A stretch of 64,000 nt of DNA, taken from contig JANQPV010000073.1 in NCBI GenBank assembly GCA_028285305.1, positions 1 through 64,000 on the forward strand, read 5' to 3'. Positions 6,452 through 56,954 of this stretch are shown one piece after another. The translations under genes were made by a program, and so were the position numbers. Source of the DNA: Alphaproteobacteria bacterium. Lineage in GTDB: Bacteria > Pseudomonadota > Alphaproteobacteria > SMXP01. A model generated the notes under the pieces. The model made no database searches. It was not told where the DNA came from and saw nothing but the letters and a program-made list of their open reading frames with translations. The stretch's first letter is position 1; each line of letters opens with the position of its first letter.

Positions 6452-6528
<77 letters not shown>

Positions 6529-6679
6529 TCTGAAAACGGTTCATTCGTCAACTTTGATCGGACCACCTTCGACTTTATCAAGCACGCAGCCCAATAATGG
6601 GGAGCACTTAACCCGTTGATCGCCTATGCACTAGCGTTAGTCTATGTCTGTTCCAATTTCCGATCCAAGGGGGAAAAAG

Positions 6680-7090
6680 ATGAACGACGAAAACAAGCTG
6701 ACGATTGCCAAAGCAGTGGCCGAGCAAATTGGCGTTGAGCAGGCCGTCGTTGCGAACCGCTTAAGTTGGAACCTGACTTTTCAGGGGTTTATGATAGCAA
6801 GTTACGCGCTCGTCGCAACGTCTGCGTTCACCGAACCGAGCCGGACTTGGATCCACCTCATCATCATCGTTGCAGGTATTCTCGTGTCTGTTTCCACTTT
6901 TATTGGTGTCTGGGCGTCACGTCTCCAGTCTTCTCAACTCAAAAGGCACTGGGATGAACAGAATCTCGATATAAGCGGTTATCCTCGGCCATTTGCCGAA
7001 CCTCTGCCATCACTCTTAGGTCGTATACCCCCATTTTTGATTTGCTTCACGATCTCGGCTATGTGGATTGCTTTGCTGTTCATTGACTGA
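6680..7090 (+). CDS. Small membrane protein of unknown function
   Basis: 136 aa. A soluble, mildly amphipathic N-terminus (about 30 residues) is followed by two closely spaced membrane helices (about residues 34-55 and 60-80), a short charged loop with RHWDEQNLD, and a third helix at the C-terminus (FLICFTISAMWIALLF). I chose the ATG at 6680 because AGGGGG lies 6 bases upstream; the ATG at 6644 has no ribosome site. I do not recognise a named family. The TM-pair-plus-tail layout is seen in small membrane proteins near immune-type genes, and the TIR gene lies next door facing this one, but that is suggestive only. Confidence 0.7.
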   Translation: MNDENKLTIAKAVAEQIGVEQAVVANRLSWNLTFQGFMIASYALVATSAFTEPSRTWIHLIIIVAGILVSVSTFIGVWASRLQSSQLKRHWDEQNLDISGYPRPFAEPLPSLLGRIPPFLICFTISAMWIALLFID

Positions 7091-7221: not shown

Positions 7222-9627
7222 CTACCCAAACGCGCTTTGCAGCCTTTCGCGGATCTCCTCCTGGCTGAGCCCTTGCAGCTTCACCAACTGAGTATTGGCG
7301 AGGAAGAAAAGAAGCTCGTCCGGCACGTCGGCATTGTCGAGGTCGAGCGGACGAAAGTCGCGCTTGAAGTGAGCGGCAAGATAGACTTCCCGGTGCACAT
7401 TCTCAGAGTTATACGCATTTGAGGTCCCCATCAGCGAGAACATCTTGGACTCGCGGATGGCTTTGACAATCTTCCCGGCCCAAGCTTCGCCAGCCATAAT
7501 GTTGTCTTTGTCGATCCAGACTTTGAGGCCAAGCTTTTGGATAACGTCGGCAAGCTTGTGGACCTTTGAGGAGTCCTTGTGAGCGTACGAGATGAAAACG
7601 TCATAGTCCGACAAATCATCGCGAATGAGTTTGCGCGGGGGGACCCGCCGAACCAGACCAATCATCCGGCCGATCCGTGAAAGGATCGCATAGTTTAAAA
7701 ATCCGGCAATGAAGGAAAGGGCAGTGGCAATGGGGAACGCAAAGGGTTGGACGACGACCGGCAAAAGATCGCGGAGCCACTGCCAGACCTTGTCGCGGCC
7801 AGAGACATAGGCGCTCAGCGCGGATTGGAGGTTGGCTGCCATGCCACCGGCAGCTGACGGCAAGGTCTCTGATTGGCTTTGTGCGGCTGCGGCCAGCCAG
7901 TCGAGACCAAGGCCGGCCGTCATGCGGTCACGGATCAGCGCCGCCGAACGGTCGTAGTCGAGGACGGATTGCAGAATGCCGGTGATATCGGTGAAAGCCT
8001 CGCTTGCCTGGCCGCAGCCTGCTTCCGCCAAAACGCGTTCTTCGTCCGATTGCCAAGTAATCTCGTCGCCCCGTTCGACGGGATCACAAACAAAACTACG
8101 GATGGATTGGGTCTCACTTTGCACGGCAATGGCCCGGCGATTGAGATCGGCGGCCATCGCATTCAGACGGTCTAACTGTTGGTCGGCTTCCTTGACACCC
8201 GCCTGGGCCCCGTCGCAATCAAGCTGAGCCTGCTCGGCGGCCTCCTGCTCGCGGGCCGGGTCGCACGCTGCAAGTTCGCCGTCTCCTGTGGTGCCGGTTT
8301 GGTTCTCATTGCCTGCCAGCGCGCTTTCGATCTCCGCAATTTGCGCGTCGATATCGCCGGCATCTTCGATCTGTTCCTCAAGATCCTTCACACGGGCTTG
8401 AAGCTCATCGATCTCGCGCTGTTTGTTGCTTTCGGCGTCCCGAGCGGGTTTGCAGCTGGCGGGCTCCACGGCCCGCTGTTGGGGCGCGCACAGCTGATCG
8501 CGTTCCGCTTCGGCTTCTTCAGCATTGGTCTTCATGCTTTCTAGCGCGACAGCGGTGAGCAAATCCGTGAGCCAATTGTTTTGGCTGTCCCGGTCATCGT
8601 TTTGTTGGTTGGGTTCAATCTGTCCCTGATTTTGCTGCCGTTCTTTTTGACGCTGTTCCGCGAGGGCGTTCTCGTAGTCTGACCTTAGCTTTTGGGCCTT
8701 CTCTCGGGCCGGTCCGCACTGGGGCGAAGTGTAGGTTTCGTAAGACGGGGCACAGGCTTGGGCGGTGCGCTGTTGTAGAGCCGCCAACTCGCCTTGCGCT
8801 GTGCGGATCATCCCCAACAGCCGGTTCCGTTCCGAAATGAGCTGGGTGACACGGGTCCGCTCTTCCTCAAGCGCTCTCAATCGTTGAAGCAATCTTTCCC
8901 GCTCAGAGGACAAGCTTTCATTTAGGTTCTGCGCATCCTGACAGGCCTCATCGGCCGCTTGAACCAAATGATTTTGGTGCTCACTCGAACAGAGCTTTTC
9001 TTGTTCCGCGTTCGCGTCTCTTTGCTCTTGATCCATCTGAGAGAGTTCTCTGGACACCTCATCATATTGACGCGCTATCTCGATGGACTGTTCGCGTAAC
9101 GAATTGAGACGTTCCACATCCAGAACGGGCGCTCTCAGACCTAAGAGTCCGAATTCTTCCGCTGCGGTGTAGGTCAAGCCGCCGGTGACGGCCACGGATA
9201 AGCCGCCGATAATTAGCGCTGCCGCCCGTGCGCTCTGCAGGGCGCTTTCCGCCAGAGCCGTCAGCGCGAAGGCGTCACGGCCGAGTGTGTCATCAATCTT
9301 CTTGACCAGTTTCTTGATGGGGGCTGCCGACGCTTTGCCGTTCCAGCCCGACAAGCTAACGGCCTGAAAGTCTCGAAACCCTTTAGGGAGCGACTTGGCG
9401 CTGCCGAGATTCGCGATGACGAGCTCATCTTTTGCGAGCGCCTCGATCATATGTTGAGTGAGCTGTTCCTTATCGGCGGTTCTGCTTGATTTTGGCCAGA
9501 CCACCACTGTGCAGGTGCGTTCTGCGGCTTCGCCGATTGTAAAGCCCTGATCGATAAGCGCCGACCGAAGCTCGTCGGCCACGGTTTGGTTTAGTTTGGA
9601 ATGCTGAAGTTTAACTCGCCTTGCCAT
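7222..9627 (-). CDS. Membrane-spanning protein with two TIR-type domains and a Cys-paired coiled coil
   Basis: 801 aa. Residues 10-115 resemble a TIR-like domain lacking its first strand (HSKLNQTVADELRSALIDQG, later LPKGFRDFQAVSLSGWNG). A membrane helix follows at about 134-154. Residues 160-615 are a long coiled coil with ten Cys in five pairs: 213/229, 292/304, 380/392, 455/471 and 514/538. A hydrophobic stretch lies at about 620-650. Residues 673-801 are a complete TIR domain (YDVFISYAHKD, VWIDKDNI, a Glu at 747 in the usual NADase position in NVHREVYLAA). The layout predicts both TIR domains in the cytoplasm and the coiled coil in the periplasm. TIR domains cleave NAD or signal in bacterial immunity; the role here is unknown. 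Confidence 0.85.
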   Translation of the reverse strand: MARRVKLQHSKLNQTVADELRSALIDQGFTIGEAAERTCTVVVWPKSSRTADKEQLTQHMIEALAKDELVIANLGSAKSLPKGFRDFQAVSLSGWNGKASAAPIKKLVKKIDDTLGRDAFALTALAESALQSARAAALIIGGLSVAVTGGLTYTAAEEFGLLGLRAPVLDVERLNSLREQSIEIARQYDEVSRELSQMDQEQRDANAEQEKLCSSEHQNHLVQAADEACQDAQNLNESLSSERERLLQRLRALEEERTRVTQLISERNRLLGMIRTAQGELAALQQRTAQACAPSYETYTSPQCGPAREKAQKLRSDYENALAEQRQKERQQNQGQIEPNQQNDDRDSQNNWLTDLLTAVALESMKTNAEEAEAERDQLCAPQQRAVEPASCKPARDAESNKQREIDELQARVKDLEEQIEDAGDIDAQIAEIESALAGNENQTGTTGDGELAACDPAREQEAAEQAQLDCDGAQAGVKEADQQLDRLNAMAADLNRRAIAVQSETQSIRSFVCDPVERGDEITWQSDEERVLAEAGCGQASEAFTDITGILQSVLDYDRSAALIRDRMTAGLGLDWLAAAAQSQSETLPSAAGGMAANLQSALSAYVSGRDKVWQWLRDLLPVVVQPFAFPIATALSFIAGFLNYAILSRIGRMIGLVRRVPPRKLIRDDLSDYDVFISYAHKDSSKVHKLADVIQKLGLKVWIDKDNIMAGEAWAGKIVKAIRESKMFSLMGTSNAYNSENVHREVYLAAHFKRDFRPLDLDNADVPDELLFFLANTQLVKLQGLSQEEIRERLQSAFG

Positions 9628-10126
9628 CGCACGCTCAAGCGCAGACGATCCGCTCGGTTCCCTGCATCAAGCGAACACCGTCGCGCTTGCCCCTCGTCAC
9701 AAATGTTCCCCGCGATTCGAGAACGCTGCTCGTTCCCAAAACCCACACCTTTAAGCCGCCTTGAAGGGTACGCCTCTCCAAAGGACTCGGCAAGTATAGT
9801 TCATATGAAGACTGTGCTTCAGCGGCACCACTGCGCACGATAATGGAGAATATGTTGGAGTCCGGTGCGGAGGCGCGGGTGCAAACATGGGTAAGCCCTG
9901 CTGCCTAAAATCCCGTCAGCCAAGGTCACGAAGGGGTTAAACTTTAGCGCTACGGCAGAGCTTTTCACGCCCGCTCGACGACCGCGCCAACATTGTCGCC
10001 AGAGCGGGTCAATTGCGCTAAACTGATGAAAATTTCACCCATGCTTCTGGAGCGCAATCGGGTGGGGCCGGAGGCGGGTGACCCGAATATGGGCGAAACC
10101 GAACGCGGGCGAAAATGGAGGGGAAG
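9628..10126. other. Intergenic region with no supported gene
   Basis: About 500 bp between the starts of the divergent TIR and pentapeptide-repeat genes. Short open frames on both strands lack ribosome sites and family-like sequence. It presumably holds the promoters of both flanking genes; I could not pick out a convincing one. Confidence 0.5.
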
Positions 10127-11431
10127 GTGGCTTCACTAAAACGACTGGACAAAGCGCTTGAAAGTGAGCGAGAGCGGATCCGTCAGCAAGTTGTGAAAAG
10201 CCAAGATGCGAAGCTGTCGTTCGAGTATGCGGATAAGGACAAGGGCGCACGACCTGACTTCGACCCTGAACATCTCAGTGTACTGCGTGGCGGCGTTGAA
10301 GCCTGGAATTCGTGGCGTGCCAATTATCCGGACGTTATTCCCCGGCTCCAAGGGGCGAACTTCAATGACGCCAGTTTTCTCAACTCGAGCCTTTGGGATG
10401 AAAAGAACTCCGTACTGAACTTTTCCGGCATCAACTTGAGCAATGCCCAGCTTCAAGGGGCAAACATGAGTGGCATATGGATGATCAACGCGGATCTGAC
10501 AGGAGCCTATCTTGTTTCAGCGGATCTCAGTCGCACGGCTCTGCTCTCGTCCGATCTCCGTGGATCAGTCCTTTATCAAGCGAATTTAAGTGGTGCGCGT
10601 GCGGACTGGGGAGATTTTTCCGGCTCGAGTTTGCGCAATGCCGACTTGTCCCATTCTTCCCTCGTGGCCTGTGATTTGGGCTATTGCGATATGACAGGTG
10701 CGGATTTGACGGGTGCGCGACTGGAAACGGTCAACTTGGAACATTCCAATGTTTCTCACGTAAAGTACAAGCGCGGCCTTCTGCCCGGGCGGTGCCAGGG
10801 TATTCGAGCTCAAGAGTGTTTCGGCGATGCGCTGTTCCGCCGGGATGTGATCGACCAGGACTACCTGGATCAATTGAGTTCGAATTTCAGCCGTGGCGGC
10901 ATCAGTTGGGTCTCGCTTGCAGTGGCGCTGGTTGCCGGCTCGGTCTTAGGTCTCGTCTTGGCTCTTTTGATTTCTGATGATCCAGGTGCGGTCTTGACTT
11001 TCCGGCCAAGCGCTGAGGATCTCTCTGTCTCGATCATTACCGCATTCTCAGTCGGTTTGGGTCTGGTTATCTTTTTGGCAACGGCGGCGGGGCGCTCCAT
11101 GCTCTTTAACATATGGGGCCTTTTCGATTATGGGCGAAGTTGGGGCCGCGTCGTGATTTTTGCGGCGATTCTGGTCGTCGTGTTCGGCTATCTCTATGCG
11201 CTGATGACGCCGGAACACGTTGCTTACTTGCGGTCGGAAGGCGCCGACGGAATATGGTTCTACCCCTGGTTTTTGGCTCTTATGGGCTTTGCCACATTGG
11301 GGCTGAGCGATCTAGCCGAGCCGGTTACGCGGGCGGGAGCCTTGGTCATGATGCTGAACGTACTCTCGGGATTTGCGACCCTTGGCCTCCTGGTTTCGGT
11401 TCTGGCCAGCACATTTGCGCGGCGCGCCTGA
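10127..11431 (+). CDS. Pentapeptide-repeat membrane protein with an ion-channel-like C-terminus
   Basis: About 434 aa. A charged, helical N-terminus precedes a pentapeptide-repeat solenoid at about residues 75-210 (units such as ANFND, ADLTG, ADLSR, SDLRG). Several membrane helices follow from about 250. The last part, FALMGFATLGLSDLAEPVT-like (WFLALMGFATLGLSDLAEP), aligns by eye with two-helix K+ channel pores, where TVGYGD is the filter; here the filter position reads TLGLSD, so ion selectivity is doubtful. Start: GTG at 10127 has GGAGGGG just upstream; an in-frame ATG at 10115 adds four residues but has only a weak site. Ligand and physiological role are unknown. Confidence 0.8.
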   Translation: MASLKRLDKALESERERIRQQVVKSQDAKLSFEYADKDKGARPDFDPEHLSVLRGGVEAWNSWRANYPDVIPRLQGANFNDASFLNSSLWDEKNSVLNFSGINLSNAQLQGANMSGIWMINADLTGAYLVSADLSRTALLSSDLRGSVLYQANLSGARADWGDFSGSSLRNADLSHSSLVACDLGYCDMTGADLTGARLETVNLEHSNVSHVKYKRGLLPGRCQGIRAQECFGDALFRRDVIDQDYLDQLSSNFSRGGISWVSLAVALVAGSVLGLVLALLISDDPGAVLTFRPSAEDLSVSIITAFSVGLGLVIFLATAAGRSMLFNIWGLFDYGRSWGRVVIFAAILVVVFGYLYALMTPEHVAYLRSEGADGIWFYPWFLALMGFATLGLSDLAEPVTRAGALVMMLNVLSGFATLGLLVSVLASTFARRA

Positions 11432-18277: not shown

Positions 18278-19435
18278 ATGATTTCCACCTTGGCGATTTC
18301 CGGCTATCGCTCCATCCGAGAGCTGAGCCTGTCTCTCGACCGGCTGAACGTAATCACCGGTCCAAATGGAAGCGGTAAGTCCAATCTCTACCGCGCCTTG
18401 CGTCTGCTGGTTTCCATTGCCCATGGAGAGTTGCATGCGGCGCTGGCTCGAGAGGGCGGATTCCCGTCCGTGTTGTGGGCTGGCCCTGAGCAGTACGCAC
18501 GTAGTGTCAAGTCCAAACAGCATCCGGTTCAGGGTACGGTCCGGCGCAATCCCGTTGCTCTAAAGCTCGGGTTCAGCACGACCGAATACAGCTATGCAAT
18601 CGAGCTCGGCTTACCCAAGCCCTCGCGCTCCGCGTTCGGGCGCGATCCCGAAATAAAGCGCGAGTTACTCTGGTCGGGTAAAGAGCCTCGCCCGCGTTCA
18701 ATCATCGCCGACCGAAAGGGGCCAAGCGTCATGGCGTCCGACAAGGACGGCGAGATGGCGTCCATTGTCACCGATCTTGCCCTTTTCGATTCCATGATGA
18801 CCCATGCTGTGGAACCGCGACGTACGCCGGAAATGCTCGCCGTCCGTGAGACCATGCGGACTTGGCGATTTTACGATCACTTTGCCATCGATGAGTCCGC
18901 TCCCGCGAGGCAGGCTCGGGTGGGCACCTATTCTCCCGTTCTCAGCGCAGATGGAGGCAATCTTGCGGCGGCTGTCCAAACGATACGGGAAATCGGGGAC
19001 GCAGCCGCTCTGGATGACGCCATCAATGATGCTTTTCCGGGCACAGATCTACAAGTGCAAGTAAACGAGGGATACTTCGAACTCGTCTTGACACAAACAG
19101 GGCTGTTGCGGCCGTTGCGAACGCAGGAATTGTCAGACGGCACACTCCGTTTCTTGCTCCTCACAGCAGCGCTTCTCAGCCCGCGCCCGCCGGAACTCCT
19201 AGTATTGAACGAGCCCGAATCCAGTCTGCATGCGGATTTGGTCCCGGCACTCGCGAGGCTCATTGTTCAGGCTTCGGTCCACTCTCAAATCGTGGTGGTG
19301 ACGCACGCCCGCCATCTTATTGATGCTATTTCAAATGAAACGGACGTGCATTTTATTGAGTTGCATAAGGAACTTGGGGAATCGAAAGTGGCCGGCAACG
19401 GATCCGCCCCATGGAAGTGGCCGACACGGCGATAG
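18278..19435 (+). CDS. AAA family ATPase (RecF/OLD-like, AAA_21 type)
   Basis: 385 aa. Walker A is GPNGSGKS at about residues 28-35, at the start of an ABC/SMC-like head (ISGYRSIRELSLSLDRLNVI). The signature-like QELSDGTLRFLLLTAALLSP is followed by the Walker B region LLVLNEPESSLHADL, where Asn replaces the usual Asp; this Asn form is common in this subfamily. A D-loop His segment (VVVTHARHLIDAI) follows. No nuclease (Toprim) domain is fused. Such stand-alone ATPases occur in DNA-repair and defence contexts; the function is unknown. It faces the unknown membrane protein gene, with 52 bp between the stops. Confidence 0.82.
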   Translation: MISTLAISGYRSIRELSLSLDRLNVITGPNGSGKSNLYRALRLLVSIAHGELHAALAREGGFPSVLWAGPEQYARSVKSKQHPVQGTVRRNPVALKLGFSTTEYSYAIELGLPKPSRSAFGRDPEIKRELLWSGKEPRPRSIIADRKGPSVMASDKDGEMASIVTDLALFDSMMTHAVEPRRTPEMLAVRETMRTWRFYDHFAIDESAPARQARVGTYSPVLSADGGNLAAAVQTIREIGDAAALDDAINDAFPGTDLQVQVNEGYFELVLTQTGLLRPLRTQELSDGTLRFLLLTAALLSPRPPELLVLNEPESSLHADLVPALARLIVQASVHSQIVVVTHARHLIDAISNETDVHFIELHKELGESKVAGNGSAPWKWPTRR

Positions 19436-19487: not shown

Positions 19488-21071
19488 TCATCGCATCGCG
19501 ATGACCTCAAGATCGGTTCTGCAACTCCGGGCCGACAAGCTGCCGCACGGCCGAATGGGCTTGCCCAGGGGCACCAAATGGAATGAGCCATCCATCTCGA
19601 CGACACAGGTCAGTGTCCCGCTCATCGTCCAGCACCCTTCGCCGCTCTCGTTACTATCGCTGTTTCCAATACCGCCGTCGCTCGCATCTAGAGACGCATA
19701 CTGAACACTGTCTTGCACCTGTTCAGCGTTCAACTTTGGCTCGTCCTCGCTAAGCACTTGCTCGGGTTCAGCGTCCAAAGCCTGCGCCGCCAATTCAGTG
19801 GGTGCCGTATTCTCTTCGATGACTTGATCAGCCTCAGCCGCGACGTCCTCAATCGCCAAAGGAGATGTGAGTACGTCGGTTTGCGCAACCTGTTGGTCCG
19901 CATCGTCGGCCGCCGATTTGGCCTCGGCGAGGTGAGAGGAGTCGAGAACAGGGTCGTCCGAATAATCGTCCTCGGTCAGTTGATCGCTCCCAGATCGATG
20001 ACTGACTGGGAGTTCCTCTATTTCGTTCGCAGCCTGATCACCGTTCTCATCCATACTGTCTGACTTGGCTGACGGTGCGGCATCCTCACTGGGCCCCAAG
20101 GCCAAATCCGGTTCGGTATCCGCGGTGTTTACACTGACTTGGATGTCTTCAACTGAACCCAGGATGTCCTCAGAGGCGGACGCAACAAACTTTTGAATCG
20201 AGCCGAATGTAGCTTGCGCCGCATCGGCCGCGTCACGAAGTCCCCGCTCCAACAGAGCAGGGTTCCTGTCGCCCAGATAACCAATGGTTCCAAGAGCGGC
20301 CAACAAGGCAAGTGCCGCCACCGTGCCGGTCCAGCCGCCATGGCTGACCCGATATTGCTCCTGACGACGAGGCGTGCGTAGATGGGGAATTCCAGCGTGT
20401 GTAGCATTTTTCCGCTTCTGAGAGAATGCGGGCGCGGAAATCGGGTCTTTTGTGAAATACCCGTTCTCGCCAATCCAGTATTGAGTGATTAAGCCATCGG
20501 GATGCTGATCCGACGGCGGAACAAAGTCGACGAGGCCAGGCTGGCAACTTGCTTCCGGGAAAAAGATTGCACCCTCTGAGTCGAAATACAGATTACGGAG
20601 GATAATCCTCTGTTGAAGCGCGTTGCCTTCGATGGGTCGGTTGAAGCTTGGTTGCAACGCCTTGACGAGCAGGTGTTTGATGGTCGTGAGCTCGTCTAAA
20701 TCGGGCCGCGGCGGCACGTGGGCCTCGTCTCCGTGGCGGAATGTTCCGACATGAATTCGGTGCGCGCTCGCAGAAGTCCGGCTGGCGACCGGATGGTCAA
20801 GGAGTTCGTTCGGAAGTGTGCCACGAGGCCTGTGGGCTTCTTCAAGCCACTGCAGCGCAGGCTGATCGGCATTGTCTCGCGTTATGGCGTAGAGCCCGTC
20901 CAGCATGTTGTTGTCTGCAGCGAAGTCGCTCGCTTCGTCTACGGAAACGAAATTGCAATGCCAGTCGATGACGGCAACGGTCGCGTCAATGGGTGTGACC
21001 GGCTCTAGAGCACTGCGAAGGCTCTCATCTCGGATCTCCGCAAAGCCTTCGTACTGCAACAAACTTCGCAT
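19488..21071 (-). CDS. Unrecognised single-pass membrane protein with acidic linker and Cys-rich C-terminus
   Basis: 527 aa. Residues 1-240 are a soluble, presumably cytoplasmic domain. Its part from GLYAI (residue 59) to ELTTIKHLLVKALQPSFNR (127-145) vaguely resembles the ends of a GIY-YIG nuclease domain, but the central catalytic Arg/Glu pattern is not evident. A membrane helix lies at 248-267. Residues about 295-470 are strongly acidic and Ala/Glu/Asp-rich, and the last 50 residues contain four Cys (GEGCWTMSGTLTCVVE, RPCGSLSARSC). The start ATG at 21071 has GGGGAGGA upstream; the longer frame to 21287 overlaps the ctaA promoter. Function unknown. Confidence 0.7.
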   Translation of the reverse strand: MRSLLQYEGFAEIRDESLRSALEPVTPIDATVAVIDWHCNFVSVDEASDFAADNNMLDGLYAITRDNADQPALQWLEEAHRPRGTLPNELLDHPVASRTSASAHRIHVGTFRHGDEAHVPPRPDLDELTTIKHLLVKALQPSFNRPIEGNALQQRIILRNLYFDSEGAIFFPEASCQPGLVDFVPPSDQHPDGLITQYWIGENGYFTKDPISAPAFSQKRKNATHAGIPHLRTPRRQEQYRVSHGGWTGTVAALALLAALGTIGYLGDRNPALLERGLRDAADAAQATFGSIQKFVASASEDILGSVEDIQVSVNTADTEPDLALGPSEDAAPSAKSDSMDENGDQAANEIEELPVSHRSGSDQLTEDDYSDDPVLDSSHLAEAKSAADDADQQVAQTDVLTSPLAIEDVAAEADQVIEENTAPTELAAQALDAEPEQVLSEDEPKLNAEQVQDSVQYASLDASDGGIGNSDSNESGEGCWTMSGTLTCVVEMDGSFHLVPLGKPIRPCGSLSARSCRTDLEVIAMR

Positions 21072-21205
21072 AAGACCAATTCCTCCCCACGTTAACCATA
21101 TCCCAAATTCGCGTTTTTGTACATGTTTGCGAGGGCGCTCTTCGATTCCAACTTGCGTCAAAGGGGCCGATTGCAGCCGCCATGTTTTCCGGGCAGGTGT
21201 GGGGC

Positions 21206-22291
21206 ATGAGGAAATTGTCCACAAATATCGGCAGAACATGGCCGCAACCGTTGCCTGTTCACACACCTGCCGAAGCCAAACCGGCACTTGTCATTTGGCT
21301 CGGCGCGATTCTTGTCCTTTTGGCGGCAATGATCCTGCTGGGTGGGGCCACGCGGCTGACCGACTCGGGCCTTTCCATTACCGAATGGCAGGTGGTCAGC
21401 GGCGCTCTGCCACCCCTCAGCGAGGCCAGTTGGAACGAAGCTTTTGAGAAGTACAAGCAAATCCCGGAATACGCCTTGATCAATGCCGGAATGACTCTGA
21501 ACGAGTTCAAGGTCATCTATTGGTGGGAATGGTCCCATCGTTTCTTGGGCCGCCTCATTGGACTTGCGTTCGCTTTACCTTTCTTTGTGTTTCTGGTGAG
21601 CGGGCGCATTGGCGGGGACTATGTGTGGAAGCTGACGGGTCTCTTTATCCTTGGTGGTCTGCAAGGCGCGCTGGGATGGTTCATGGTCCAAAGTGGCCTC
21701 GTGGACCGCGTGGACGTGAGCCAATACAGACTGGCGGCGCATCTTGGTCTGGCGTTCGTCATTTTCGGCGCCGTCGCGTGGGTCCGATGGGATCTTGCGG
21801 GGCGCGCGCCCATATCCATTAAGAGCGAATTTGCACCACTTATACGGTATGCAGCGGTTGGGCTGCTTGTGTTGATCTTTTTGCAGATTGTCGCCGGTGC
21901 GTTCGTCGCCGGGATCAAGGCGGGCCATACGTATAATACGTGGCCGCTGATGGATGGAGCGCTTGTCCCCAAGGGCTATTGGTTTGTGAGTCCCTGGTAC
22001 CTGAATTTCTTCGACAACGCAGCCAGTGTCCAATTCAATCACCGGGTCTTGGCCTATGTCATCCTTGCCTTGACTCTTGGGTTGGCGATCGTTGTCTTCA
22101 GGCGGGCGGCGTCCCTGAGCGCTCCCGCATTGATTCTTGTGGGTACTGTATTGGTCCAGGTGCTTCTCGGCATTTGGACGTTGCTGGCGGTGGTGCCGCT
22201 CCCCCTCGGCGTCCTCCACCAGGCTGGCGGCATTGCCGTCTTCGCGGCCGCGCTCAACCTTGCGTATACGTCTCAAATCGCTGAACGATAG
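21206..22291 (+). CDS. ctaA: Heme A synthase (CtaA/COX15)
   Basis: 361 aa with eight predicted membrane helices. CtaA oxidises the C8 methyl of heme O to make heme A for cytochrome c oxidase. Signatures are GGATRLTDSGLSITEW and four His in conserved positions: WWEWSHRFLGR, YRLAAHLG, FNHRVLAY and VLHQAGG. I chose the ATG at 21206 after GGTGTGGGG; an in-frame ATG at 21182 lacks a ribosome site. The partner heme O synthase and oxidase genes are not in this window. It diverges from the unknown membrane protein gene. Confidence 0.93.
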   Translation: MRKLSTNIGRTWPQPLPVHTPAEAKPALVIWLGAILVLLAAMILLGGATRLTDSGLSITEWQVVSGALPPLSEASWNEAFEKYKQIPEYALINAGMTLNEFKVIYWWEWSHRFLGRLIGLAFALPFFVFLVSGRIGGDYVWKLTGLFILGGLQGALGWFMVQSGLVDRVDVSQYRLAAHLGLAFVIFGAVAWVRWDLAGRAPISIKSEFAPLIRYAAVGLLVLIFLQIVAGAFVAGIKAGHTYNTWPLMDGALVPKGYWFVSPWYLNFFDNAASVQFNHRVLAYVILALTLGLAIVVFRRAASLSAPALILVGTVLVQVLLGIWTLLAVVPLPLGVLHQAGGIAVFAAALNLAYTSQIAER

Positions 22292-24823: not shown

Positions 24824-26173
24824 TTACCAGTCAACCTGTGCGCGGAAGGTGATGTTTTGGACTTCACCGTCCCCGAGGTTAGCCGTGTTATCATCGACGT
24901 CTGAGTAACCGTAGTTCAACATCATCCGGGTGTAGTTGTTCAGGTGCCAATTGATGCCGCCGATAATGCCGGTCATCTCACCTGTCTGCGTCAACCCTGC
25001 AACATCGTCGTCCGTCAGATCGACATAGTCGTAGCGGACAGCAAGTTGCCACGCACCCAAGCCACCGTCGTTGACTGGGTTTGCTACCTTCACGCGTCCG
25101 AACTTACCCTTCTTGGCTTGGTAATTTCGACTCTCGCCCGTTAGGAAAACAGAGGCGTCCACATACCAACCCCAGAAAGACGGATCATCGTTCGGGCATG
25201 CGATGTCACCGAAAACGTCCGACGTGTCGTTACACTCTACCTCAAGGCGCATATACTCACCTTGGAGAGAGAACGGACCGAATGTGCCAGCCGCTTCGAA
25301 ACCGTAAGTCAGGTCGCTGTCAGCATCGACGCGGAAGTTACCGATCGGGCGAAAGCCTGTGCGGTGATGTGCAGCAGCACGCTGACGATAGCGTACGCCG
25401 TCTCCGCCGGCATCTTCAAAGCCACGGTAGCGAATGTGAGCACCCAGGTGAACGTTCATGTCGTCGTTGGCGATTGGTGCGAACGTTCCGCGAGCTGCTA
25501 GAGCATACTGCTCCTGTTCAACGATGCCCGCCGTGGTAGAGCCATCGCCGCCACCGGCCGGGCCACTAAATGCCCCAAGCTTGAACGTCCACTGATCGCC
25601 GCCGAAATCGGCGCCAACACCAATTTGACGACCAAGTTGGAACGCATCCGTGATGAAGGCGCGTTCAATGAAGGTGATGTACTTAGAAGATGTATTCTCT
25701 TCCAAAGAGTTCGGCGTCCTGAACTGACCCAGAGTTATTTTTGCCGGTCCCCACTTTTGCTGAACATAAGCGTCGGTGATATCAACTTCGTTTTCTGCGA
25801 AGTCGACCTCGAACTTGTACTTGGTCTTGCTCATGATTTTGCCCTCGGCGCCCAAACGGACCCGACGGAACTCAGCACCTTGGTCAGATGCTTCAGTGGT
25901 TCCAAGATCGATATCTTGGATAGAGTAGTCGGCCATCACGCGACCACGGACTTTGAACTGCCAACCGTCTTGGCTCCACTGCGGCGCGGCCTTCCATTTG
26001 GGCTCTAGGCCACCTTGAGCCGCCTTTTCCTCCAGAAGAAGAATCCGGCGCTGCAAGTCCTCTAACTGATCACAACAGTCCCCAGCCCCTGCATTTGCTG
26101 TCCCAGAGAAAGCTGCCGTGAGCGCGAAGGCTCCGGCAGATGATAGAAGTACTGACAATCCCCGCTTCATCAT
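24824..26173 (-). CDS. OprO/OprP-family porin (copy 1)
   Basis: 449 aa. A signal peptide (cleavage near ANA-GAG) is followed by a short coiled-coil with adjacent Cys (CCDQLEDLQRRILLLEEKA) and then a beta-barrel of the phosphate-selective porin type: GRVMADYSIQDID, KFEVDFAENEVDITDAYVQ, ITLGQFRTPNSLEE. The last residue is an aromatic (QVDW), as in outer-membrane barrels. OprP/OprO take up phosphate or polyphosphate; proximity to pstS supports this, though Cys-plus-coil porins of this type are broadly distributed. It ends at a strong terminator. Start ATG 26173 or the next ATG; AGGAAAGA lies upstream. Confidence 0.88.
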   Translation of the reverse strand: MMKRGLSVLLSSAGAFALTAAFSGTANAGAGDCCDQLEDLQRRILLLEEKAAQGGLEPKWKAAPQWSQDGWQFKVRGRVMADYSIQDIDLGTTEASDQGAEFRRVRLGAEGKIMSKTKYKFEVDFAENEVDITDAYVQQKWGPAKITLGQFRTPNSLEENTSSKYITFIERAFITDAFQLGRQIGVGADFGGDQWTFKLGAFSGPAGGGDGSTTAGIVEQEQYALAARGTFAPIANDDMNVHLGAHIRYRGFEDAGGDGVRYRQRAAAHHRTGFRPIGNFRVDADSDLTYGFEAAGTFGPFSLQGEYMRLEVECNDTSDVFGDIACPNDDPSFWGWYVDASVFLTGESRNYQAKKGKFGRVKVANPVNDGGLGAWQLAVRYDYVDLTDDDVAGLTQTGEMTGIIGGINWHLNNYTRMMLNYGYSDVDDNTANLGDGEVQNITFRAQVDW

Positions 26174-26714: not shown

Positions 26715-28022
26715 TTACCAATCGATTTGGCCACGGAATGTGACGGTTTGTACTTCACCATCACCGAGGTTGGACCCATTTTCATCGATATCACTGTACC
26801 CGTAATTCAGCATCATGCGCGTATAATTGTTCAGATGCCAATTGAGGCCGCCAATGATGCCCGTCATTTCACCGGTGCCTGTGAGGGACGCGACGTCGTC
26901 ATCGGTCAAATCGATATAGTCGTAGCGAACCCCAATTTGCCAAGCGCCGAGACCGCCGTCGTTCACGGGGTTATTGACTTTGACTCGGCCGAACTTGCCC
27001 TTCTTGGCTTGGTAATTACGGCTTTCGCCTGTCAAGAAAACAGAAGCGTCCACATACCAGCCATAGAATCTGGGGTCGTCGCCACCAGCATTCGATTCGA
27101 CCTTTGTGCCCATATACTCACCTTGCAGCGAGAAAGGACCGAAAACGCCGGCAGCTTCAACGCCCCAAAGAAGATCCCCGTCAGCATCTATCGGCGCCAC
27201 GCCGGACGTGCTGATCGGGAAGAACGCCGTGCGATGGAACGCTGCAGGACGTTGCGTATACGCGGTCGTGGTATTGTCTTCATTGCCGCGATATCGTACG
27301 TGCGCACCAAGATGAACTTGCCGATCGTCTTCGACGATGGGCGCATATGTGCCGCGAGCCGCGAGTGTGAACGTCTCCTGTTGGAACGCCGTGGTGTCAC
27401 CGGAACCTGCGGCATCAGCAAAAGCACCGGTCGTAAAGGTCCAGTTGTCGCCATTGAAACCCGCGCCGATGCCGATCTGACGTCCAAGCCCGAAGGCGTC
27501 GGTGATGAAAGCGCGTTCCGTAAATGTAATGTAGTTCGAAGAGGTCTGTTCCTCTAACGAATTAGGCGTCCGAAATTGTCCGATTTTTACGGTCGCAGGT
27601 CCCCATTTTTGAGCCAGATATGCGTCAGTAATCTCGACAGAATTTTCGGCAAAATCGACCTCGAACAGATACTTGGTCTTTTTCATGATCTTGCCTTCAG
27701 CACCCAAACGCGCGCGGCGAAACTCACCGCCGTGGGAGGAGGCTTCAGTAGCACCTAAATCAACGTCTTGAATGCTATAGTCAGCCTGGATACGGCCACG
27801 TATTTTGAACGACCAGCCGTCTTGACTCCAACGAGGAGCTGCTTTCCATTTCGGCTCAAGGCCGCCGGCTCCAGCCTTTTCTTCCAAAAGAAGAACCCGG
27901 CGCTGCAAATCTTCAACTTGATCGCAGCAATCACCTGCCCCTGCATTCGCAGATCCGGCAAATCCTGCCACGAGTGCCGCAGCTGCAGCTGATGACAGAA
28001 AAACTGACATTCCCCGCTTCAT
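26715..28022 (-). CDS. OprO/OprP-family porin (copy 2)
   Basis: 435 aa, clearly paralogous to copy 1 over its whole length. The same elements are present: signal peptide ending ANA-GAG, CCDQVEDLQRRVLLLEEKA, GRIQADYSIQDVD, LFEVDFAENSVEITDAYLA, KIGQFRTPNSLEEQ, and a terminal aromatic (GQIDW). Differences cluster in the surface-loop region in the middle third, where copy 1 has extra Cys and charged residues. The ATG at 28022 has AGGAAAGAG 8-9 bases upstream; a GTG at 28031 is also in frame. Tandem duplication with loop divergence suggests different solute preference. Confidence 0.88.
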   Translation of the reverse strand: MKRGMSVFLSSAAAAALVAGFAGSANAGAGDCCDQVEDLQRRVLLLEEKAGAGGLEPKWKAAPRWSQDGWSFKIRGRIQADYSIQDVDLGATEASSHGGEFRRARLGAEGKIMKKTKYLFEVDFAENSVEITDAYLAQKWGPATVKIGQFRTPNSLEEQTSSNYITFTERAFITDAFGLGRQIGIGAGFNGDNWTFTTGAFADAAGSGDTTAFQQETFTLAARGTYAPIVEDDRQVHLGAHVRYRGNEDNTTTAYTQRPAAFHRTAFFPISTSGVAPIDADGDLLWGVEAAGVFGPFSLQGEYMGTKVESNAGGDDPRFYGWYVDASVFLTGESRNYQAKKGKFGRVKVNNPVNDGGLGAWQIGVRYDYIDLTDDDVASLTGTGEMTGIIGGLNWHLNNYTRMMLNYGYSDIDENGSNLGDGEVQTVTFRGQIDW

Positions 28023-28426
28023 AATATTCACTCTTTCCTAGTTATCAGAATATGGTTCAACGCAATACTCACGAAGTCACTGTCCGTGCACAACGTCTAC
28101 GGCCTTGCGCAACACATAATCGTCAGCCATCCGCATGGATCGCAACCTTTAACCTGTCCGTGGACAAAGCTTATACCGATAGTCAGTGACGACACCGCAT
28201 TTGTCGTTGTGTACGGTCTTTCTGTCAGACCAAGTCTGTGTGCTCAATGATTGATCATTACTCTGCACAAGTCGCTTCCAGTCCTGTGACAAACAAGCAA
28301 CGTTTGTTAAGGCTATGTTTAGATTGGTTAACGAAGGGTAAATTTTCGGCCTGAAAATAACCGGATTTGCGATCAAATGGTTAACGCGCGATAACCAATG
28401 AACCACAGTCCAAACGGAGCGATGCG
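28023..28426. other. Divergent intergenic region between porin 2 and the enoyl-CoA hydratase gene
   Basis: About 400 bp, rich in A+T near the hydratase. It holds the promoter of porin 2, with the block GTTGAACC...AGGAAAGA shared with porin 1. No supported small gene, hairpin or clear operator was seen. Confidence 0.5.
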
Positions 28427-53821: not shown

Positions 53822-53850
53822 TTGGCGCGGATGCCTGTTTAGGTTTTAAT
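53822..53850 (+). promoter_or_regulatory. Promoter of the first CHAT gene
   Basis: TTGGCG (53822-53827), 17 bases, TTTAAT (53845-53850). The same -35 and -10, with the same spacer length but different spacer sequence, precede the second CHAT gene, which supports function. A start near 53857 leaves a short leader. Confidence 0.7.
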
Positions 53851-53882
53851 TGGTCAAGGGAACACGCAAGGAAATCGGGCGG

Positions 53883-56825
53883 ATGGCTGCCGGGACGCAA
53901 TCGATATGGTTGTTGGAGTGTTGCAAATGGTTGACTGCGGCGGGGTTGGTTCTGCTTAATTCGAACGCAGCACAGTCCTGTGACTCCCAGCGATTGGTTG
54001 AACTTTACACAGAGTGGTATGGGCTCTATTCCGCTGGACAATATGCCGAAAGCGAACCTTTTGCTCTTGAAAGCGTCTCCGTCGCCGTTCAAACGTGCGG
54101 CCCGGACCATCCTGAGACCGCCAGCACCCTTGGCAATCTGGCGATTGTGTACGAAAACCAGGGCCGCTATGAGGAGGCGGAGCCCCTCTATCTACGGGCT
54201 TTGAATATCAGGGAAGACTCGCTCGGTCCGGACCAACCCGAGACTGCCGGAACACTTCAAAACCTAGCGATTTTGTATAGCAACCAGGGCCGCTATGGAG
54301 AGGCCGAACGCCTTTATCTTCGGGCCTTGAAGATCAAAGAAGATAAGCTCGGCACCAACCATCCCGATACAGCTGGAACACTTCAAAACCTGGCGATTTT
54401 GTATTGGACCCAGGGCCGCCATGGAGAGGCCGAACCCCTCTTTCTGCGGGCCTTGAAGTTCTGGGAAGACTCGCTAGGCCCGGACCATCCCGAGACCGCC
54501 CGAACCCTTGGCAACCTGGCGGCATTGTATAGAAGCCAGGGCCGCTACGGGGAGGCTGAATCCCTCTATCTGCGGGCCTTGACGATCAGAGAAGACACGC
54601 TCGGCCCGGACCATGCCGATACAGCCACGACCCTTCAAAACCTTGCGATACTATATAAGGACCAGGGCCGGTATGGGGAGGCCGAACCCCACTATCTGCG
54701 GGCCGTGAAAATCAGGGAAGACAAGCTCGGCCCGGACCACCCTGAGACGGCCAGAGCCGTTAGCAACCTGGCGTTTTTGTATGATGATCAGGGCCGCTAC
54801 GAGGAGGCGGAGCCCCTATACCTTCGGGCATTGAAGATCATGGAAGACACGCTCGGCCCGGACCATCCCTTGACCGCCATAACCCTTCGAAACCTTGCGG
54901 GTTCGTATGAAGTTCAGGCCCGCTATGGGGAGGCAGCGGGACTCTACCACCAAGCCCTTATCAATCTGCAGGATCGCCTATTTATGGGGGCGGACGGGGA
55001 GATTGAAGACCTGGTGCGCACCAATCTGGTGCGGGATTGGATCCTTCCTAGCATTCACCTCTTCTTAGGACGGATTCCCCTGGAGCAAAGAAGGTTTCCC
55101 GATCTTTTTGCAGCGGGTTTTGATGTCTTTCAGCGTCTTAAGACCTCCTCGGTCGGGTCAGAAATAATTCGATCAGCTCTCGTCTTGCAGGCTGAGGATC
55201 CAGATCTACGAAGTCTGGTAAAGTCGGTTGATTTCGCAAACGTTGAATTTGAGCGAATTGCGGATCTCCTGCTCACCGCAAGAGAAAAAGGCGCCAGTCC
55301 GGAAACTATCGCCGAGCTCGAAAGAGATCGAGTAATTGCGCTTGAACGCCGGGCGAAGGCACAGCAGGCACTTGAACTAAAATACCCTGATTTCGCCCTG
55401 TTCGCTCGGCCGGAACCCACGACGTTCAAGGAATTCCAGAACGATCTCCTGAGCGACGGTGAAGCTCTCATAGCCTATGCTCAGGTCGGTTATCAAGGCA
55501 TGTACCTTGCCTATGTTGTCACACAAGGGGCCGTCGAGTTTGTGCCTTTTGATCTGACGGGAGAGGAGATCGAAGCGCTTGTTTCCTCGCTTCGTGCGGG
55601 AACAGCCTTGCCCTCAGGCGGGTCTTTCAGCGTGCGCGACCTAGCCAACCTGGAATTTGATCTGGGGGCGGCTCATCAGCTCTATACCGGCCTCATCGCA
55701 CCGCTGGAGCCTTATCTTGTCGGCATCGATCATCTCCTGATTGTACCAGACGGACCGCTGGAAAGCCTCTCGTTCAACTTGCTCGCAACTTCCCTTCCGC
55801 GAACGGAGGAAACCCAATCCGTAGAAGATGAGGCTGTTGAAGAATCGGAACCTGGCGCCGAAGACCCTTTGGGGCAAGCCCGAGCTATGGCGGAGAAGGC
55901 CTGGGCATGGCTGCAAACGACCGCCGCAAGTGTTCAAGCCTCCTTGCAAACCGACGCGGGCGCTTTTGCCCCGTACCGGGAGCCGGCATGGCTTGGCGAT
56001 AAGTACGCCATCAGCACACTGCCCACAGTGGGGGCCATTGAAGCGGTTCGCAAGCTGGAAGGCTCGAGTGCGCGTCAGCCCTTGCTCGGCTTCGGCGATC
56101 CGGTGTTAGAGGGGCCGTCCAGCCGCACTGCCCAATCAGCAGGCGCGGAAGATCTCCTCACCTTGGGACTCGGCGAGTCAGCGGACGTCACCAAGGTTCG
56201 CCAATTGACCCCCATCCCTCAGACCGGAGAGCTTTTGAATGAGTTGGCACTCGCCTTGGAAACAACTGCGGTTCATCTGTACACGGGCTCGAAAGGCACC
56301 GAGCAAGACTTAAACCTCTTGAACGAGCGCGGCCTGTTAAGGGACTATAGAACCGTTGCGTTCGCCACACATGCTCTTGTTGCTGGAGAGCTGCCCAAGC
56401 TGGGTCTCGATGAACCCGCGCTCGTTCTCACACCGCCCGCGAACGACAACGACGTCCTCTTCTCCAACGATGGCCTTTTGCGCGCCAGTGAAGTGGTGCA
56501 GCTCAATCTGAACGCAGATTGGGTGCTGCTGACCGCGTGCAACACGGCCGCGTCCGACGGAACACTAGGGGCGGAACCACTTTCGGGTCTCGCCAAGTCC
56601 TTCTTTAAGGCCGGCTCGCGTTCTCTTCTTGTGTCTCATTGGCCCGCCGAGGCGAATGCGGCGGCAAAGCTCGTCCCCGACCTCATCAAACGCACTGCGG
56701 CCGGTGAGCCCCGAGCCGAGGCCTTGCGCCAAGCCATGATCTCCTTACGGAACGACCCGGACAATCCCCATTTCGCCCATCCGGCCCTCTGGGCGCCGTT
56801 TGTCATCGTAGGCGAGGGGGGCTAG
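53883..56825 (+). CDS. Exported TPR-CHAT (caspase-like) protein, copy 1
   Basis: 980 aa. A Sec signal peptide (about residues 1-33, cleavage near AQS-CDS) precedes eight tetratricopeptide units at 42-residue spacing (about residues 40-365, consensus NLAILYxxQGRYGEAEPLYLRAL). A helical region (370-520) leads to a CHAT domain. The His-Cys dyad is His830 (FATHALVAG) and Cys886 (LLTACNTAA). CHAT peptidases are clan CD cysteine proteases that cleave partners on command. Secretion is unusual; most studied TPR-CHAT proteins are cytoplasmic. The ATG at 53883 is preceded by AAGGAA; an upstream TTG is unlikely. The second copy follows after 129 bp. Confidence 0.9.
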   Translation: MAAGTQSIWLLECCKWLTAAGLVLLNSNAAQSCDSQRLVELYTEWYGLYSAGQYAESEPFALESVSVAVQTCGPDHPETASTLGNLAIVYENQGRYEEAEPLYLRALNIREDSLGPDQPETAGTLQNLAILYSNQGRYGEAERLYLRALKIKEDKLGTNHPDTAGTLQNLAILYWTQGRHGEAEPLFLRALKFWEDSLGPDHPETARTLGNLAALYRSQGRYGEAESLYLRALTIREDTLGPDHADTATTLQNLAILYKDQGRYGEAEPHYLRAVKIREDKLGPDHPETARAVSNLAFLYDDQGRYEEAEPLYLRALKIMEDTLGPDHPLTAITLRNLAGSYEVQARYGEAAGLYHQALINLQDRLFMGADGEIEDLVRTNLVRDWILPSIHLFLGRIPLEQRRFPDLFAAGFDVFQRLKTSSVGSEIIRSALVLQAEDPDLRSLVKSVDFANVEFERIADLLLTAREKGASPETIAELERDRVIALERRAKAQQALELKYPDFALFARPEPTTFKEFQNDLLSDGEALIAYAQVGYQGMYLAYVVTQGAVEFVPFDLTGEEIEALVSSLRAGTALPSGGSFSVRDLANLEFDLGAAHQLYTGLIAPLEPYLVGIDHLLIVPDGPLESLSFNLLATSLPRTEETQSVEDEAVEESEPGAEDPLGQARAMAEKAWAWLQTTAASVQASLQTDAGAFAPYREPAWLGDKYAISTLPTVGAIEAVRKLEGSSARQPLLGFGDPVLEGPSSRTAQSAGAEDLLTLGLGESADVTKVRQLTPIPQTGELLNELALALETTAVHLYTGSKGTEQDLNLLNERGLLRDYRTVAFATHALVAGELPKLGLDEPALVLTPPANDNDVLFSNDGLLRASEVVQLNLNADWVLLTACNTAASDGTLGAEPLSGLAKSFFKAGSRSLLVSHWPAEANAAAKLVPDLIKRTAAGEPRAEALRQAMISLRNDPDNPHFAHPALWAPFVIVGEGG
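54114..54977 (+). repeat. Tandem 126-bp TPR repeats in CHAT copy 1
   Basis: Seven tandem units of 126 bp encode 42-residue TPRs; unit boundaries fall at GPDHPET or GPDHPDT. Units are well conserved at the DNA level (for example CAGGGCCGCTATG-type blocks recur), so they may expand or contract by recombination. Confidence 0.85.
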
Positions 56826-56894
56826 AGCCCGATACATAAAAGGCTTGCGGTCTTGCTTGCTTTTGATGCTTCGATTTGTGCCTCGAAATGTGTC

Positions 56895-56923
56895 TTGGCG
56901 CTGTTGCATGGATCGGTTTTAAT
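56895..56923 (+). promoter_or_regulatory. Promoter of the second CHAT gene
   Basis: TTGGCG (56895-56900), 17 bases, TTTAAT (56918-56923), identical in its elements to the copy 1 promoter. The wider block GTGTCTTGGCGC-N13-GGTTTTAAT is shared while the spacer differs. Confidence 0.7.
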
Positions 56924-56954
56924 GAGGAACCAAACGTCCCTTTGGAGCAAGACA

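Follow-up and report, generated by a model that had tools for sequence, protein, structure and literature searches.

The 64,000-nucleotide stretch of alphaproteobacterial DNA analysed here, called the window below, encodes a protein of 801 amino acids (7222..9627, minus strand, open frame from ATG to stop) whose order of parts is well supported: pseudo-TIR, first transmembrane segment (TM1), stapled periplasmic rod, second transmembrane segment (TM2) and catalytic-type TIR. All features of this gene given below lie on the minus strand. The GC content at the first, second and third codon positions was 0.65, 0.42 and 0.65, respectively, and was similar in the neighbouring genes. The product is very probably an inner-membrane double-TIR protein with a periplasmic loop. 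It is apparently an undescribed and unusual membrane receptor, a variant of the bacterial TIR effectors; the initial annotation knew of no described immune protein with such a layout, and no described protein of this kind was found in the libraries searched. With roughly even confidence, we read it as a single-gene, envelope-sensing TIR NADase receptor that is gated by its own pseudo-TIR and carries a periplasmic rod riveted by disulfides.

The N-terminal TIR-type domain

Judging from its alignments, the region of residues 1–118 (9274..9627) is a degenerate second TIR, a domain that was absent from the discussion in the initial annotation. Pfam alone did not call these residues. In blastp against TIR proteins of other alphaproteobacteria and of the same genome, the best match was at 2.9e-5 and six were at 0.005 or better, and all of this similarity was to the second half of TIR domains, in register. 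Comparison with TIR by hhalign gave a probability of 96.5% and an E value of 8.5e-10. A profile built from five TIRs scored 43.4 bits on residues 1–118, compared with a maximum of 10.2 in 20,000 shuffles; its members were selected because they resembled this region, which leaves the blastp value as the unbiased figure.

The alignment spanned the TIR domain from start to end except for about 17 residues between the end of beta-B and the start of alpha-B, where the W-W-D...BB loop...alpha-B stretch is missing. The side formed by beta-D, beta-E and alpha-E was kept, and His59 occupied the column of the catalytic Glu. Because the BB loop is missing and His59 stands in place of Glu, the N-terminal domain was termed a pseudo-TIR.

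Enzyme TIRs require for their activity that the BB loop of a domain is bound to the EE/DE face of its neighbour (PMC8635717). In bacterial TIR-STING, the BB loop is likewise indispensable, and the active site is a composite that includes a contribution from the partner TIR (PMC9402430). In enzyme TIRs, this docking on the EE/DE face (beta-D, beta-E and alpha-E) serves to complete the NAD+ site or to open it. Here, the pseudo-TIR would present an acceptor face with neither BB loop nor Glu, and could therefore only receive the BB loop of the catalytic TIR, which it would take without extending a TIR chain. The rod and the two transmembrane helices would fix the relative position of both TIR-type domains. 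A pseudo-TIR lacking its BB loop would be a natural test of the activation rule in which one TIR gives the BB loop and another the EE face.

It is possible, if somewhat unlikely, that the pseudo-TIR is instead an inhibitor, which covers the catalytic TIR in the resting state until movement of the rod pulls it away. Such a cap would fit a fold that kept its EE-type half but lost the BB loop, so that a TIR chain cannot propagate, and being fused would make it fitting for a lethal enzyme; it is at odds with the activating role of the BB/EE contact in enzyme TIRs (PMC8635717).

Cysteine pattern and the predicted periplasmic rod

The protein has Cys at residues 39, 213, 229, 292, 304, 380, 392, 455, 471, 514 and 538. 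Apart from Cys39, all of them (10 of 11) lie in the loop between the hydrophobic segments. The initial annotation had described this pattern correctly: the ten Cys from residue 213 onward form five pairs with gaps of 15, 11, 11, 15 and 23, the four C-x-P-(A/V)-(R/E) motifs begin at residues 304, 392, 455 and 514, and hydropathy agrees with the placement of all ten Cys between two membrane segments (about residues 133–153 and 622–652). With C-A-P at 292 and 380 as well, CAP-x9-CxPAR is present twice. When the loop was shuffled 100,000 times, four C-x-P-(A/V)-(R/E) motifs never arose, and placing the Cys at random reproduced the strict five-pair layout in 0.027% of trials. An LprI/DUF1311 lysozyme-inhibitor module, raised by the Cx11C spacing, was rejected, as the segments around the five Cys pairs gave no match to it at E values up to 10.

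Counted over the first eight Cys of the loop, the gaps (15-62-11-75-11-62-15) form a perfect palindrome. Expressed as sums of residue numbers, 213+471, 229+455, 292+392 and 304+380 all equal 684, with residue 342 as the mirror centre. The coincidence of four of the 45 Cys pair sums had a probability of 1.75e-5 under random placement, and of 1e-4 under placement in five local pairs. Because facing positions of an antiparallel coiled coil add up to one constant, a turn at residue 342 would bring each ascending Cys opposite a descending one.

Structure prediction, which the initial annotation had proposed as a check, gave a helical, coiled-coil-like model of the loop. AF2 was run with one sequence as input; the loop alone reached a mean pLDDT of 71.8 and a pTM of 0.38, while the full-length protein reached 47.7 and 0.29, too weak for domain placement. 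The loop alone was modelled as helices with pLDDT mostly of 80–95, and the helix breaks (214, 293–303, 335–343, 380–392, 447–456 and 520–527) fell at or near Cys and the mirror centre. In a structural search with VIA-align, the loop model matched the human dynein stalk (8i3j) with an rmsd of 2.5 Å over 133 residues, in a superposition that uses model residues 230–451 and is centred at about residue 341. The next matches were Smc/Rad50 arms and the hairpins of EnvC and PcsB. Helical matches with Z near 10–13 are common for helical rods, and these structural matches count for shape only; those from Foldseek were generic long coiled coils and likewise speak to overall shape only.

With the Cys ignored, the hydrophobic complementarity of residues 171–334 with the mirrored partner had its maximum, of 166 registers compared, at sum 683 (z 2.9), a value reached by 1 in 20,000 of the 7-residue block shuffles of the descending strand. 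When only L, I, V, M and F were scored, the best register sums were 690 and 773, and 690 is in the heptad phase of 683. Charge pairing of the two strands did not single out sum 684.

From these lines of evidence, the loop probably folds into a single long antiparallel rod. Its rungs would be nested, and it is predicted to comprise residues 171–519 (8071..9117) with its tip at about residue 342. Each strand would have 164 residues and the rod a length of about 20–24 nm, which is near the width of the Gram-negative periplasm. On the ascending strand, the membrane-proximal elbow is marked by Cys213-x15-Cys229 (8941..8991; mirror partners 471 and 455) and the distal elbow by Cys292-A-P...Cys304-G-P-A-R (8716..8754; helix break 293–303, mirror partners 392 and 380). 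The tip region, residues 335–349 (8581..8625), is a Gln/Asn-rich turn around the modelled break and the mirror centre. On the descending strand, the distal elbow is formed by Cys380-A-P...Cys392-K-P-A-R (8452..8490), at the break 380–392, and the membrane-proximal elbow, assigned from sequence and mirror symmetry, by Cys455-D-P-A-R...Cys471 (8215..8265). Nested disulfides 213–471, 229–455, 292–392 and 304–380 would rivet the rod and bracket its two paired helix breaks, the elbows. The fifth Cys pair, 514/538 (8014..8088), would form a separate local hairpin around the helix turn at 520–527 and lead the chain from the rod back to the membrane. This mirror-placed ladder of Cys amounts to a clean and falsifiable structural prediction made from sequence alone.

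The initial annotation had expected disulfide-stapled helical hairpins. The helical coiled-coil nature of the loop was borne out by AF2, whereas mirror symmetry, hydrophobic pairing and the stalk matches spoke against five hairpins made by adjacent Cys. In that unlikely arrangement the receptor would be the same, with each Cys bonded to its neighbour in sequence. Five separate stapled hairpins would account for the grouping of the Cys as five close pairs, for the helix breaks that AF2 placed between or beside each pair, and for the tandem orientation of the two CAP-x9-CxPAR copies. However, they leave the exact palindrome of Cys gaps unexplained, the AF2-based matches are long antiparallel stalks spanning 230–451, and the hydrophobic pairing of the local hairpins was unremarkable (z from 0 to 1.9, compared with 2.9 for the long hairpin). 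The nested pairing of one long rod is thus favoured over the five hairpins.

The genome encodes DsbB, a component of the oxidising-periplasm pathway, and disulfides can therefore form in the periplasm. The presence of this system could also suit a sensor of redox or disulfide stress, as could a loop of 466 residues with ten Cys that pair across elbows. In such a sensor the loop Cys would be switchable, and any stress that led to reduction or mis-pairing in the periplasm would loosen the rod and fire the TIR. We regard such a sensor as distinctly unlikely: the loop carries no CxxC or other redox-active motif, and nested rungs suggest static riveting.

The C-terminal TIR and membrane topology

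The C-terminal domain, residues 673–801 (7225..7611), is a TIR of catalytic type with a BB loop and Glu747. Pfam TIR_2 matched it at 7e-19 and 68.9 bits, compared with the curated cut-off of 28, and its nearest solved relative by sequence in the PDB was the NAD+ hydrolase AbTIR (5.9e-6). The BB loop, WIDKDNIMAGEAW, aligned with TIR_2. Glu747, which the initial annotation had proposed as the catalytic residue, stood at the start of alpha-C and fell in the catalytic-Glu column of the profile alignment. Besides Glu747, the domain shared with catalytic TIRs the SYA-x-KD start, W-x-D and the Gly of the BB loop, while Asn743 replaced the W that is common in the bacterial TIR motif S-x-W-x-x-E. By sequence, the C-terminal TIR is likely to be a catalytic NADase. 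That the TIR domains act instead as protein–protein scaffolds in envelope assembly or signalling is quite improbable; Asn743 would suit such a role, but the conserved catalytic features and the identity of the closest PDB sequence as an NAD+ hydrolase speak against it.

By hydropathy, TM1 covers about residues 133–153 (9169..9231) and TM2 about residues 622–652 (7672..7764). TM2 is followed by a K/R-rich, presumably cytoplasmic flank with 6 K/R within 20 residues, as expected of a positive-inside flank. The simplest reading of hydropathy, the K/R flank, the Cys placement and the TIR-type ends is an N-in/C-in protein with a periplasmic loop. The topology suggested in the initial annotation is supported: the positive-inside flank follows TM2, TIR folds occur at both ends, and the ten loop Cys lie between the hydrophobic segments. 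The converse, a cytoplasmic loop with the TIR domains outside and the Cys as free thiols or metal ligands, is extremely improbable, as no point in its support was found, the K/R-rich flank sits on the TIR side of TM2, TIR domains require cytosolic NAD+, a CxxC metal knuckle is absent, and there is no signal peptide ahead of the N-terminal TIR fold. A zinc hook in the loop was also considered and was dropped, as there is no CxxC.

Relatives, neighbourhood and the proposed receptor

Searches of about 780 Pseudomonadota genomes, of plasmids and of viral contigs turned up no relative of the non-TIR part. There was no credible match to it among 385 genomes of the class and 398 of the phylum, and the weak matches in the phylum genomes were unrelated coiled coils, TIR halves or spurious. 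It was also absent from the four closest members of the family. The full protein gave TIR-only matches against 96 relatives and the 385 class genomes, and two scans of genome contigs returned no match and generic TIRs only, respectively. Among 92 TIR frames from other species, the one with a TIR downstream of a transmembrane segment was a multi-spanning protein, and the order transmembrane segment, long loop, transmembrane segment, TIR was not seen in any TIR frame of the alphaproteobacterial loci that were collected. A profile search of the 385 class genomes found many TIRs and no other frame with two widely separated ones. The layout of the double-TIR receptor is thus rare. As a separate observation, a 242-aa frame at locus L057 (G039:C1:120072-120740) consists of two TIR domains back to back. 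The genome under study has at least six TIR_2 matches (contigs C24, C35, C50, C54, C60 and C74), including multi-transmembrane and WD40-type fusions.

At lower coordinates in the window, tRNA-Pro(GGG) (6452..6528, plus strand; ARAGORN) ends a conserved plsX-fabH-ihfA-merR block, as seen by synteny with two other alphaproteobacteria. The distance from tRNA-Pro to argC is 30.6 kb here (window 6452–37075), compared with about 2.4 kb in one other alphaproteobacterium; the TIR gene lies inside the lineage-specific stretch beyond tRNA-Pro, where it stands alone. Insertion of a mobile element at tRNA-Pro was considered and rejected, as the window holds no att-like repeat of the tRNA 3' end. The divergent neighbour (10115–11431, plus strand) encodes a pentapeptide-repeat protein with C-terminal transmembrane segments, relatives of which, often in tandem, are encoded by each of the other four family genomes. 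The convergent neighbour (6644–7090, plus strand) encodes a small membrane protein whose similarity to 8xMP (1.1e-4) and to PycTM stays below threshold, and this gene is absent from the four family relatives. A partnership of the TIR gene with either neighbour was rejected: relatives of the pentapeptide protein exist in the family without a TIR beside them, the 8xMP-like gene is absent from the relatives, and an operon is unsupported.

Several other genes of the window were recorded. At 18278–19435 (plus strand), 9 kb from the TIR gene, an AAA_21 ATPase of the HEC-01A-like defence type gave an almost full-length match to PADLOC HEC-01A (2.5e-50), which is in keeping with a role of the TIR gene in defence; the neighbouring frame (19488–21287, minus strand) fits no family of Pfam or PADLOC and is perhaps not a true gene. 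Two large TPR-CHAT (caspase-like) proteins are encoded in tandem at 53850–56825 and 56853–59894 (plus strand), and two similar exported proteins, perhaps porins, with the N-terminus AGAGDCCDQ-x-EDLQRR, are in tandem at 24824–26173 and 26715–28031 (minus strand).

The TIR gene is monocistronic and has unrelated genes on either side. Neither a link to phage nor a partner gene was found for it. Whether the protein is a sensor of the envelope or of phage is, in our estimate, evenly balanced, and we infer the sensing from the architecture. In the gated receptor that we prefer, a disturbance of the envelope (adsorption of a phage or injection by it, loss of integrity in the wall or outer membrane, or breakage of rungs) would bend or release the rod. 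Movement of the rod would alter the contact between pseudo-TIR and TIR and turn on NAD+ cleavage, and growth would stop before the phage cycle is completed. The fuller version of this proposal is an immune protein resembling a Toll receptor, in which a helical ruler riveted by disulfides spans the periplasm and couples the envelope to a cytoplasmic TIR pair, the truncated pseudo-TIR licenses or restrains the NADase, and a breach by phage leads, within a single polypeptide, to abortive loss of NAD+. As a whole, we hold it as tentative and rather doubtful. Known bacterial TIR defences mostly sense intracellular cues.

When compared with known systems, AbTIR (PDB 8g83/7uwg) and the TIR_2 NAD+ hydrolases have the TIR fold and the catalytic-Glu column in common with the C-terminal domain; unlike in AbTIR, the TIR here comes last, behind a pseudo-TIR, two transmembrane segments and an extracytoplasmic loop of 465 residues. 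Thoeris ThsB shows TIR similarity only (PADLOC ThsB models, best 2.9e-8) and differs in its membrane receptor layout, and no model of ThsA matched among the neighbouring genes scanned. As in TIR-STING (CBASS Cap12) and other ligand-gated TIR effectors, control of the TIR through BB-loop TIR–TIR contact would apply (PMC9402430), whereas the input here would come from the envelope. With Pfam and PADLOC, neither a CBASS-type STING/SAVED domain nor a nucleotide cyclase was found in the protein or the tested neighbours. In the twin CX9C/CX3C hairpins of the mitochondrial intermembrane space, Cys pairs join two antiparallel helices in a nested manner. The spacings here are CX11C and CX15C and the rod is far longer; no sequence relation is claimed. 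EnvC and PcsB hairpins and the arms of Smc, Rad50 and MukB share the shape of a long antiparallel coiled coil with the rod, but in shape only, with low identity and no shared domains, a likeness that is generic for helical rods.

Toll-like receptors and IL-1R have the same general layout, with an extracytoplasmic sensor, a transmembrane segment and a cytoplasmic TIR (PMC8635717). For the receptor as a whole, there is no evidence of common descent with them. In place of LRR or Ig domains, the protein described here has a helical, Cys-rich rod as its ectodomain, and it differs further in its two transmembrane segments, its second, N-terminal TIR and the enzymatic type of its C-terminal TIR. If our reading is correct, this single-chain receptor would carry a signal from the envelope to a TIR enzyme and would parallel the Toll receptors in function.
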